Shown here: positions 28,649 to 30,982 of the stretch, piece by piece
Layout of the letters: the number at the start of each line of letters is the position of its first letter
How positions within the stretch are numbered: position 1 is the stretch's first letter
Virus record (IMG/VR): IMGVR_UViG_3300035664_000053
Span: 1-31,486 of that record
DNA: 31,486 bases
Direction: 5' to 3' (one strand)
DNA from: a virus
Program-made: the position numbers and the translations under genes
Notes under the pieces: generated by a model
Database searches by the model: none
The model's input: only the letters and a program-made list of their open reading frames with translations
What the model was told of the DNA's origin: nothing

Positions 28649-29071
28649 ATGAAAAATAATTATGACGATTTGGACAAAGCATTAAATATTGAAAGTAGTA
28701 TTGTTGAAGTGGAAAAATCAACTACATCAATTGATATTATTCCGGCGCAAACGGATGACATAAAAAAAGATTATGAATATACTAGAGCAAATTTATATTC
28801 ATTAATTGAAAAAGGTCAGGAAGCAATTAATGGAATTATGGAACTTGCCGGTGAGGGGGGTAGTCCAAGAGCATATGAAGTGGCTGGGCAACTTATTAAG
28901 AGTGTTGCGGATACGACCGATAAACTTATAGATTTGCAGAAAAAACTCAAAGATGTTCAAGAAGATAATACTAAAGTTTCAAATAACGTAACAAATAATG
29001 CCGTATTTGTTGGGTCTACTTCCGAATTGTCAAAATTACTGAAGCAAGGTTTTCTAAATAATAAAGACTAA
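28649..29071 (+). CDS. 16: Small terminase subunit gp16
   Basis: gp16 recognises or regulates DNA for packaging by the large terminase gp17. The 140-aa product (164 aa in T4) has the family core: DYEYTRANLYSLIEKGQEA, then NGIMELAGEGGSPRAYEV and GQLIKSVADTTDKLIDLQKKL, a helical hairpin used for ring oligomerisation. Flexible acidic N-terminal and Asn-rich C-terminal tails flank it (SELSKLLKQGFLN at the end). It lies six bases after gp15 and has no Shine-Dalgarno. The partner gp17 is not in the window; instead three other genes follow, so gp17 is either further downstream or elsewhere. Confidence 0.94.
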   Translation: MKNNYDDLDKALNIESSIVEVEKSTTSIDIIPAQTDDIKKDYEYTRANLYSLIEKGQEAINGIMELAGEGGSPRAYEVAGQLIKSVADTTDKLIDLQKKLKDVQEDNTKVSNNVTNNAVFVGSTSELSKLLKQGFLNNKD

Positions 29072-29084
29072 TAAGTTGTAATAA

Positions 29085-30668
29085 ATGAACGAGCAATTAA
29101 AACCATATAAGACCGTGGAAGAGATTGCTAAAAAGCATCGTCTTAAAGTTTCTTTTATTCAAAAACAACTTGATATGGGTGCTCCAATTGAGCACGAGCA
29201 TACAAATAATCAAAAACTTGCCGTTGAGATTGCTCTACAACACTTAGACGAAATTCCAGATTATTATACTCGTTTGAAAAAAATGGAAGCAGAGGCTAAG
29301 AAGCATCATAAAAAATTTAAAGATGTAAAAGAAGGAAATCTTCATAAATGGTTCAATAAGTCCAGTTCAAAAGATGGAAAACCTGGATGGGTAAATGTCG
29401 TAACTGGAGGAACTTGTGCAAGTGATGAACCGGGAGAAGGAACTCCAAAATGTGTTTCTTCCGCAAAAAGAGCAAGCATGACTCCTTCCGAAAGACGCTC
29501 TGCATCAAGAAGAAAAAAAGCAGCAGATCCAGAACAACAATCAAAGTCTGGTGCAGAAAAACCAACTTATGTTTCTACCGATAAACCAGAAAAGAAAATG
29601 AACGAAGAAAAAGATATTAAAGGAAAAGGTAGTGGTAAAAAGGATGCTTGCTACAGTAAAGTAAAGTCCAGGTATGATGTTTGGCCCAGTGCATATGCAT
29701 CAGGAGCACTGGTTAAGTGTCGTAAAGTTGGTGCTGCTAATTGGGGCACAAAATCAGAAGATTGTTGGGATGGATATAAGCAAGAAGGTATGAAGAAGAA
29801 AGGTAAAAAAATAGTCCCAAATTGTGTACCAGTAAAAGAGGAACAAACAATGATTAGATACTGCCCCAAATGCAAAAAAGACGAAACTCAATCAGAATGC
29901 AAATATGGACCAAAGTTTTGGGCATTGTATTCAACTCCGCAAATGTTGACTACAAATCAAATGAAATATGATATTGCACAGGTACATCCTGCAAATGAAT
30001 CTAAAGAACCAGATCACGAATATTCAATGGCTAGGTCTGAACTTTCTACGATTATTTCTGCGGCAAAAAAACTTCGTGGAAAATTAAAGGGAGAAGGTAA
30101 TATTGAGGCTTGGGTGCAGTCAAAAATTACCAAAGCGGCAGATTATATTGATGCTGCGGCAGATTATCTTGATAGTGGAGAGCATAATGTTCAAAGTTCT
30201 ATAGATGAAAACATTAGTTTTGAAATTGGACACACTTCCGCAGACGCAAGAAACGCATCCAGACAAGATAAAATTTTAAAAAGAGCAGCATCTGGACAAC
30301 AGGGTGCAGATATTGCCAGAAAAAAACTTACTGGAATTCAATTACCACTTGCAAATTCAACGAACCTAAAAACCTTTGGTGAGTTTATGCAAGAGGCACT
30401 TGATAAGTCTAAAATGAAATGTAACTCCCCAAAGTCTGACCCCGTAGGAGATTCTCTTACGGGTAAGTCTCACGTCGTAAAAGCTTGTGAGGGTGGGAAA
30501 GAAAAACTCATCCGTTTTGGGCAAAGGGGTGTGAAAGGTTCTCCAAAGAAAGAGGGAGAATCAAAAGAATATGCAAGTCGTCGTAAGAGATTTCAAACTA
30601 GACACGCAAAGAATATTGCCAAAGGTAAAATGTCCGCTGCCTACTGGGCAAATAAAGTCAAGTGGTGA
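29085..30668 (+). CDS. Mosaic Lys-rich protein of 527 aa (DUF5661-, DUF5872-, DUF6321-like modules) with an internal capsid-targeting-like site
   Basis: Several modules are strung together. Residues about 8-70 resemble DUF5661 (EHEHTNNQKLAVEIALQHL, then PDYYTRLKKME). About 85-165 resemble DUF5872 (GKPGWVNVVTGGTC and MTPSERRSASRRKKAA). About 185-225 is a Cys-containing module (ACYSKVKSRYDVWPSAYASG). About 255-285 has RYCPKCKK, a possible zinc-binding pair. About 315-370 is a helical module (GNIEAWVQSKITKAADYIDA). From 428, LKTFGEFMQEA resembles the capsid targeting peptide of T4 internal proteins, followed by a DUF6321-like Lys-rich tail ending SAAYWANKVKW. All these families lack a known function. 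It is very basic overall. The domain names are from memory and need a profile search. The protein is likely virion-associated or capsid-internal, which is inference. It sits 13 bases after gp16. Confidence 0.88.
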   Translation: MNEQLKPYKTVEEIAKKHRLKVSFIQKQLDMGAPIEHEHTNNQKLAVEIALQHLDEIPDYYTRLKKMEAEAKKHHKKFKDVKEGNLHKWFNKSSSKDGKPGWVNVVTGGTCASDEPGEGTPKCVSSAKRASMTPSERRSASRRKKAADPEQQSKSGAEKPTYVSTDKPEKKMNEEKDIKGKGSGKKDACYSKVKSRYDVWPSAYASGALVKCRKVGAANWGTKSEDCWDGYKQEGMKKKGKKIVPNCVPVKEEQTMIRYCPKCKKDETQSECKYGPKFWALYSTPQMLTTNQMKYDIAQVHPANESKEPDHEYSMARSELSTIISAAKKLRGKLKGEGNIEAWVQSKITKAADYIDAAADYLDSGEHNVQSSIDENISFEIGHTSADARNASRQDKILKRAASGQQGADIARKKLTGIQLPLANSTNLKTFGEFMQEALDKSKMKCNSPKSDPVGDSLTGKSHVVKACEGGKEKLIRFGQRGVKGSPKKEGESKEYASRRKRFQTRHAKNIAKGKMSAAYWANKVKW

Positions 30669-30673
30669 AACCA

Positions 30674-30982
30674 ATGAAAAGTTTTAAACAGTTTCTATCA
30701 GAAAGCATCAATATTGCTGGAGATTTCAATGGAAATCTCTATATGAATTCTCCCCAACAAGAAACTACAAGCGAATCTTTTATCGCTGATGTTGTTTGGG
30801 AAGGAAAAATATATCGTTTAGAAATTGGTGGGCAAATGGTAGACAAGAATAAACTTGCCGAGCAACTTCAGAGAGAATATCCTGGAGCAATTGTTCATAA
30901 CATTTATCCATCAACAAATAGTGGTATAACTATTAAGAGTTCACAAAGATATAGACCAGAAAGTTTAACATGGAGTGATTGA
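30674..30982 (+). CDS. Small protein with T4 internal-protein-like capsid targeting sequence (102 aa)
   Basis: The frame is open from GTG 30662, but ATG 30674 gives MKSFKQFLSES, which closely resembles the T4 internal-protein leader MKTYQEFIAEA, and the GGTGAAACC before it is a usable ribosome binding region. L-S-E|S fits the T4 prohead protease rule (Ile/Leu-x-Glu). The mature part would hold INIAGDFNGNLYMNSP, then SFIADVVWEGKIYRLEI and a C-terminal YPGAIVHNIYP segment, a pattern I recall as conserved in cyanophages. No domain is known to me. It is probably packaged inside the capsid, either as a core component or delivered to the host; the targeting likeness is seen, the fate is inferred. 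It starts five bases after the stop of the 527-aa gene. Confidence 0.85.
   Translation: MKSFKQFLSESINIAGDFNGNLYMNSPQQETTSESFIADVVWEGKIYRLEIGGQMVDKNKLAEQLQREYPGAIVHNIYPSTNSGITIKSSQRYRPESLTWSD

Follow-up and report, generated by a model that had tools for sequence, protein, structure and literature searches.

The gene at positions 29085..30668 (+) of the window, the whole stretch of 31,486 nucleotides analysed here, encodes a modular polyprotein of 527 aa (58.9 kDa, pI 9.6), P0001, which probably is a head-targeted precursor of small, mostly basic internal proteins that is cut by gp21. P0001 is built of modules that are shuffled among its relatives and have standalone counterparts in other phages, a gp21-type site signature is found in the linkers, the fused form co-occurs with gp21, and orthologues are found in virions. 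The simplest explanation is that P0001 is a precursor targeted to the capsid, from which gp21 would release modules that are retained with the DNA. In this way, the product of one gene may bring several small proteins into the virion.

Locus and modular architecture of P0001

The open reading frame of P0001, which starts with ATG, is real, as the initial annotation had it, and is located in the slot between gp16 and gp17. Upstream are a neck protein (PF11649), a sheath stabiliser (PF16724) and then the terminase small subunit gp16 (28649..29071, +; PF11053, E 4.5e-8), and the gp17 and gp21 region lies beyond the end of this 31-kb contig. By synteny, the slot between gp16 and gp17 was also found in S-SRM01, S-T4, S-SM2, DSL-LC02 and S-SCSM1; it is common to named cyanophages, and therefore the window is a fragment of a T4-like cyanophage (Kyanoviridae-type). 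Cyanomyoviruses rank among the most abundant viruses of the ocean. The P0001 gene is T4-GC 119 in the nomenclature of Sullivan et al. 2010 (PMC3037559), where the gp16-gp17 region of cyanophages was listed in 2010 as a hot-spot of variation that encodes hypothetical proteins. The next gene (30674..30982, +; phrog_1742) has a probable start at ATG 30674, preferred over GTG 30662, which gives the N-terminal capsid-targeting-like sequence MKSFKQFLSES, and a similar N-terminus is kept in the counterparts directly after the polyprotein in S-SRM01, S-T4, DSL-LC02 and S-SCSM1. In S-SRM01, a recombination endonuclease VII-like gene (L082:7786-8196) sits just 3' of the polyprotein, and this gene in the variable slot is possibly a mobile element.

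With module boundaries taken from profile models (HMMs) built on relatives, we found that P0001 consists of eight small modules of 23-87 aa and disordered linkers. The multi-module chain proposed by the initial annotation was recovered, with eight modules in place of its four to six; M4 (CWDGYK..NCVP), M7 (SFEIGHT..LPLAN) and the internal KTFGEFMQEA segment had been overlooked. All features that follow are on the + strand. M1 (29097..29324, aa 5-80) is all-helical and belongs to DUF5661, as had been recognised from the sequence (PF18905, E 1.6e-13 over aa 12-69; 51.2 bits, above the gathering cut-off of 27), with an AF2 pLDDT of 92-95 across aa 11-50. DUF5661 also has a weak IF2_N-like similarity (E 0.0038 in L082 and 0.0025 in VPs20). 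The linker at 29325..29342, which carries the candidate gp21-type site VKE83/G (AF2 pLDDT <50 at aa 78-83), leads to M2 (29343..29582, aa 87-166; HKWF..GWVNV..CASDEPGEGTPKC..KPTYVSTD; phrog_3477/727/12753). A second linker (29583..29624; AF2 pLDDT <50 at aa 169-184) with the candidate site MNE174/E is followed by M3 (29625..29753, aa 181-223; DACYSKVKSRYDVWPSAYASGALVKCRKVGA), which is standalone as CRP-7 gp64 and CRP-207 gp70, and by M4 (29763..29831, aa 227-249; CWDGYKQEGMKKKGKK..NCVP), which was delimited by its module HMM and modelled by AF2 as a two-strand hairpin at 231-249.

The linker downstream of M4 (29832..29855) has a motif match, VKE252/E, as a candidate site of a statistically weak class. 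M5 (29856..29996, aa 258-304; YCPKCKKDETQSECKYG) shows a zinc-ribbon-like Cys pattern and an AF2 pLDDT of ~95 at aa 261-280, and M6 (30012..30182, aa 310-366; DHEYSMARSEL..AADYLDSGE) is a two-helix module according to its module HMM and AF2. The linker at 30183..30215, with the candidate site IDE375/N (AF2 pLDDT <50 at aa 369-391), precedes M7 (30216..30359, aa 378-425; SFEIGHTSADAR..IQLPLANS), which is largely disordered (module HMM, AF2). An internal capsid-targeting-like segment, LKTFGEFMQE437/A, including a gp21-type site, is located at 30366..30398 (aa 428-438; helix 431-438), upstream of the C-terminal end module M8 (30405..30665, aa 441-527), which has a net charge of +17 and matches phrog_7595 (E 6.2e-28, profile positions 11-96 of 96).

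The AF2 model of the whole P0001 (76 sequences) has a mean pLDDT of 71.5 and a pTM of 0.29, with M1, M2, M5, M6 and M8 as confident compact beads, and M8 modelled alone reached a pLDDT of 85.7 and a pTM of 0.76. The pLDDT is <50 at aa 78-83, 169-184, 220-225, 298-309, 369-391 and 400-426, and low-confidence linkers coincide with the sites E83, E174 and E375. PDB sequence and fold searches gave nothing significant for the whole P0001 model or for M8. No family except DUF5661 reached its cut-off in the Pfam search of P0001, and no enzymatic or peptidase domain was found in any module by Pfam and PHROG searches; matches to Protoglobin and SbsC_C were discarded as noise.

Two other Pfam names had been suggested for P0001. 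DUF5872 (PF19197, a 116-aa family) gives no match from P0001 itself in the Pfam search, and the suggestion was right in substance: standalone M3 relatives match PF19197 positions 1-52 (E 5.5e-8; 33.8 bits, above the cut-off of 27.5), and standalone M2 relatives match positions ~49-103 (E 2e-5 and 6e-6; 25.4 and 27.3 bits, just below 27.5). Since standalone M3 and M2 match its separate halves, DUF5872 itself seems to be a fusion of two modules (M3+M2); P0001 contains both modules in the opposite order. In roseophage CRP-207, the two modules are encoded by neighbouring genes (L269:2829-3243). DUF6321 (PF19846), suggested for the C-terminus, was rejected (E 0.22; 12.6 bits against a cut-off of 28.5), phrog_7595 fits instead, and DUF6321 is an alternative end module in relatives. 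M8 members weakly match DUF5754, and DUF5754 and DUF5872 are both among the families listed for the Chrysochromulina parva virus genome (PMC12085832), a hint that modules (DUF5872, remotely DUF5754) may be common to cyanophages and giant algal viruses.

Standalone counterparts and shuffling of the modules

The initial annotation had regarded the chain as formerly separate genes, and this was borne out: M1, M2, M3, M8 and M9 are known as standalone genes, three of them side by side beside the terminase in podophages. Roseobacter phage CRP-7 carries the consecutive genes gp65 (M9-like), gp64 (M3, 47 aa) and gp63 (M2, 80 aa) just upstream of terL, and CRP-207 carries M8 (gp71), M3 (gp70) and M2 as adjoining tiny genes near terS and terL. 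With M9-M3-M2 in CRP-7 and M8-M3-M2 in CRP-207, the M8/M9 swap is therefore the same in operons and in fused chains. Phage Cr30 has a standalone M1 (DUF5661; 70-aa homologue). Standalone M8 ORFs were found at 71 loci and mostly begin at the edge of the fused module, typically with MA(K/x)..DKSKMKCN; M8 has a further match in phrog_220, 'minor head protein and DNA pilot'. We also looked for a single continuous family without standalone homologues, and what the searches returned were separate modules with standalone genes.

Internal Met codons at module starts had been noticed as a further sign of joining. Met172 after EKK and Met257 after KEEQT are present, at only two of the seven boundaries, and internal translation starts at these codons were rejected, with no Shine-Dalgarno-like sequence and poor conservation (the Met before M5 is not conserved). 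The Met codons are weak evidence of former gene joining, and the standalone genes are strong evidence. Modules also occur in other fusions. In Vibrio phage VPs20, DUF5661 forms part of a fusion with a DUF2213 protein, whose gene lies just in front of that for a DUF2184 protein, and on a T4-like contig (L172:2057-2734) a protein of 226 aa has M8 at its C-terminus, its gene being followed directly by those for gp21, scaffold and MCP. The VPs20 fusion and the phrog_220 match of M8 further connect the modules with phage heads. On another contig, an A-run immediately ahead of M8 separates this module from the polyprotein (L108:2480-2540), a split that may be a sequencing error, a programmed frameshift or a true gene split; this locus was set aside as a case of standalone M8 beside a polyprotein, because the split may be a sequencing frameshift.

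Comparative analyses of relatives, which were collected by tblastn and from IMG/VR loci, showed extensive shuffling. The 179 proteins with at least three modules gave 84 module strings (partial ORFs counted), and the 149 complete homologues gave 68 module orders, with 20 module pairs seen in both orders. The last module was M8, M9a or M9b in 148 of the 149, and M8 and M9 were mutually exclusive, never occurring together in these complete homologues. Extra modules, M0, M10, M11 and M12, were inserted in relatives, and internal KTF..F segments were located ahead of M8 or M9 in 18 cases. The S-SM2 polyprotein (L084:3710-5833) contains a full DUF192 domain among its modules (E 3.6e-24).

Candidate gp21 sites, targeting-like segments and virion orthologues

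T4 gp21 cuts after L/I-x-E (PMC9026906); this rule is T4's own, and the specificity of cyanophage gp21 was deduced from look-alikes in the MCP and in capsid targeting sequences (CTS). We compared [ILVM]xE in module flanks dereplicated to <60% identity with 500 residue shuffles, in which the Glu and hydrophobic content is retained. The motif was found before M2 in 27/28 flanks (shuffle mean 7.0, max 15), M3 in 34/46 (19.1, 28), M4 in 52/59 (21.7, 31), M8 in 9/9 (3.1, 7), M9a in 18/19 (7.7, 13), M9b in 25/30 (12.1, 20) and M10 in 42/43 (23.8, 35). Dereplicated flanks before M5, M6 and M11 showed no enrichment over shuffles. The strict [IL]xE beats all shuffles for some modules only, and P3 is V or M at several sites; the conserved E-A or E-D at M10 and M9a could belong to the module itself.

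Across 72 non-redundant chains, a candidate site was present at 329 of the 442 junctions, with a mean of 7.8 linker sites per chain, and the fraction of Glu residues with a hydrophobic residue at -2 was 0.337 in linkers versus 0.107 in modules; the site motif is rare within most modules. The residue after a linker site was Ala in 94/499 windows, compared with 44/973 for other Glu residues of the linkers (OR 4.9; p 8e-18, which is optimistic as the windows are not fully independent), and this effect after the motif was absent from 655 control ORFs (OR 0.80). Fused M8 was preceded by a site in 17/18 cases, the exception reading FME/A, and a site match was found in 7/75 standalone M8, namely four start-Met 'MAE', one truncated fused copy, L109 and L098. 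P0001 itself has eight motif matches (E3, E13, E56, E83, E174, E252, E375 and E437), of which E83, E174, E252, E375 and E437 are at module boundaries and E13 and E56 fall inside M1; the M3-M4 junction has no motif match. The gp21-type sequence signature is present ahead of M2, M3, M7 and M8.

Of the named or large genomes that encode a fused chain, 14/14 have PF03420 (gp21), against 0/6 named phages with standalone modules, a link that is confounded with phylogeny, every fused case being T4-like. Among 41 mostly short IMG/VR contigs, PF03420 was found in two with fused chains, in L108 and also in L172. In T4, a stretch as short as the first 10 residues of IPIII is sufficient for capsid targeting (PMC9026906). 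The N-terminus of P0001 (MNEQLKPYKTVEE) has no MKTYQEF-like propeptide of 10-20 aa ending in L/I-x-E. In S-SCSM1, the MS-detected NMNAT begins with MKSFLQFLKE/A and the MCP carries FLAE/A; in S-CREM2, the MS-detected cytidylyltransferase begins with MKNFSSFLTE/A, the MCP carries LLTE/A, and gp136 begins with MQTFSMFFSED. The T4-like contig L109 encodes a small gene of the form MKTLLQYIQE/R-M4-KIDE/A-M8. Several small genes in the neck region of this contig (L109:839-5275) begin with the capsid-targeting-like MKTF/MKTL..F, and by their N-termini are a possible cluster of internal-protein genes. Site enrichment, the P1' Ala, gp21 co-occurrence and capsid-targeting-like segments, all read from sequence, support the processing by a prohead protease that the initial annotation had proposed.

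The same annotation had proposed that the protein is packaged, and for orthologues of P0001 this is supported by virion MS data from S-SCSM1 (PMC9602691) and S-CREM2 (PMC10665884). S-SCSM1 ORF29, the top match of the fold search, is annotated as a virion protein, a label that in that record accompanies the MS-detected set. In the S-CREM2 virion proteome, gp136 was detected with 8 unique peptides (24.1% coverage) and gp137, which has the DUF6321 end module, with 4 peptides (4.1% coverage); both genes are located between TerS and TerL. The record note 'similar to Synechococcus phage S-SM1 protein' is attached to gp13-gp15, gp18, GC403 and GC119 and absent from gp16, gp17, GC392 and PTOX, and because this pattern fits the virion-detected set of PMC3037559, the S-SM1 orthologue presumably is in the virion as well.

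Competing explanations and known systems

We infer that modules made separately in other phages, small, mostly basic and in part Cys-rich, would be joined here into a single chain that enters the prohead core, where gp21, the T4-type prohead protease, would cut at the hydrophobic-x-E sites in the linkers (E83, E174, probably E252, E375 and E437). About six predicted pieces of 6.7-13.9 kDa would stay with the DNA, analogous to the T4 internal proteins IPI-III, and would be ejected along with the genome. The most likely role of the pieces, as a guess, is DNA association or early host take-over/anti-defence. For T4-like cyanophages as a group, we give about even chances to a wider proposal: a shuffling internal-protein polyprotein, in which a varying set of small ejection proteins encoded by one gene would be co-packaged and freed in the capsid by the prohead protease, and for which the gp16-gp17 slot would serve as a cassette for gain and swap of modules, including some that giant algal viruses would have as well.

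P0001 might instead be a multidomain protein that stays uncut in the virion, near the neck or portal for instance, with flexible linkers, with modules that bind DNA or head proteins as a chain and with hydrophobic-x-E motifs that are incidental. Presence in virions needs no cleavage, the gene is placed between neck genes and the terminase, and the linkers are Glu-rich in any case; however, shuffled flanks with the same Glu and hydrophobic content fall far short of the observed sites, the P1' Ala is specific to linker sites and absent in control proteins, and the site is mostly missing from standalone M8, all of which make this explanation unlikely. Somewhat less likely still is a prohead-core scaffold-type protein like T4 gp22/gp67/gp68, which would be cut by gp21 and mostly expelled before packaging, with no role after ejection. 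Such a protein would agree with the many candidate cut sites per chain, with the fusion of M8 in L172 to a protein encoded beside gp21/gp22 and with the low MS coverage of S-CREM2 gp137, but the conserved modules are well folded and stay intact, few sites falling within them, the same modules are separate proteins in phages without a PF03420 match, and an orthologue is still found in mature virions.

Very improbable is an injected 'polyvalent protein' (Iyer et al. 2017), in which several effectors would be delivered as an entire chain or one that processes itself. In its favour are the combinatorial, virion-associated multi-domain chain beside structural genes and the DUF192 domain in one relative; against it, P0001 has no enzymatic or peptidase domain, its modules are 23-87 aa, and the linker signature indicates an external protease, gp21. 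If the preferred reading, a precursor cut by gp21 inside the head, is true, many hypothetical genes of the gp16-gp17 region would belong to a single system that supplies the capsid with cargo from a modular precursor, and readable cleavage sites would predict each mature fragment. Cyanophage internal proteins would then be testable directly from existing MS data, and a sequence rule (targeting-like segment, hydrophobic-x-E/A joints) could be applied to other T4-like phages in the search for packaged proteins.

In the literature searched, titles and abstracts on cyanophages combined with polyproteins or capsid targeting sequences contained no description of such an arrangement. T4-GC 119 (Sullivan et al. 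2010, PMC3037559), which is the same locus and family as P0001 in S-SM2, P-RSM4 and S-SM1, is known only as a hypothetical protein, and module shuffling and protease-site joints were not described in the literature found. The modules belong or remotely relate to DUF5872 (PF19197), DUF5661 (PF18905), DUF6321 (PF19846) and PHROG 7595/3477/727, which are families without known function. The release of proteins from one chain is a likeness between RNA virus polyproteins and the scheme proposed here for cyanophages. Polyvalent proteins of phages and conjugative elements share with P0001 the combinatorial, virion-associated chains and the domain swapping between relatives; they contain enzymatic domains, often together with a metallopeptidase of their own (Iyer et al. 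2017, PMC5512222), whereas P0001 has tiny modules, non-enzymatic by sequence, and sites that fit the prohead protease.

The T4 internal proteins IPI/IPII/IPIII and Alt, with their CTS and maturation by gp21 (PMC9026906), are, like the predicted products of P0001, small basic proteins. No sequence homology of P0001 modules to T4 IPs was found, and P0001 is placed outside the T4 internal-protein group because it has no N-terminal targeting sequence, a defining feature; the CTS is N-terminal in T4 and the corresponding segment is internal in P0001. Unlike the T4 proteins, P0001 has several modules per precursor with sites between the modules, at which cleavage is predicted. Both have a KTF..F-type targeting segment ending in a gp21-type x-E/A, and both T4 internal proteins and P0001 relatives have gp21 in the same genome and are virion-associated, for P0001 through its orthologues.
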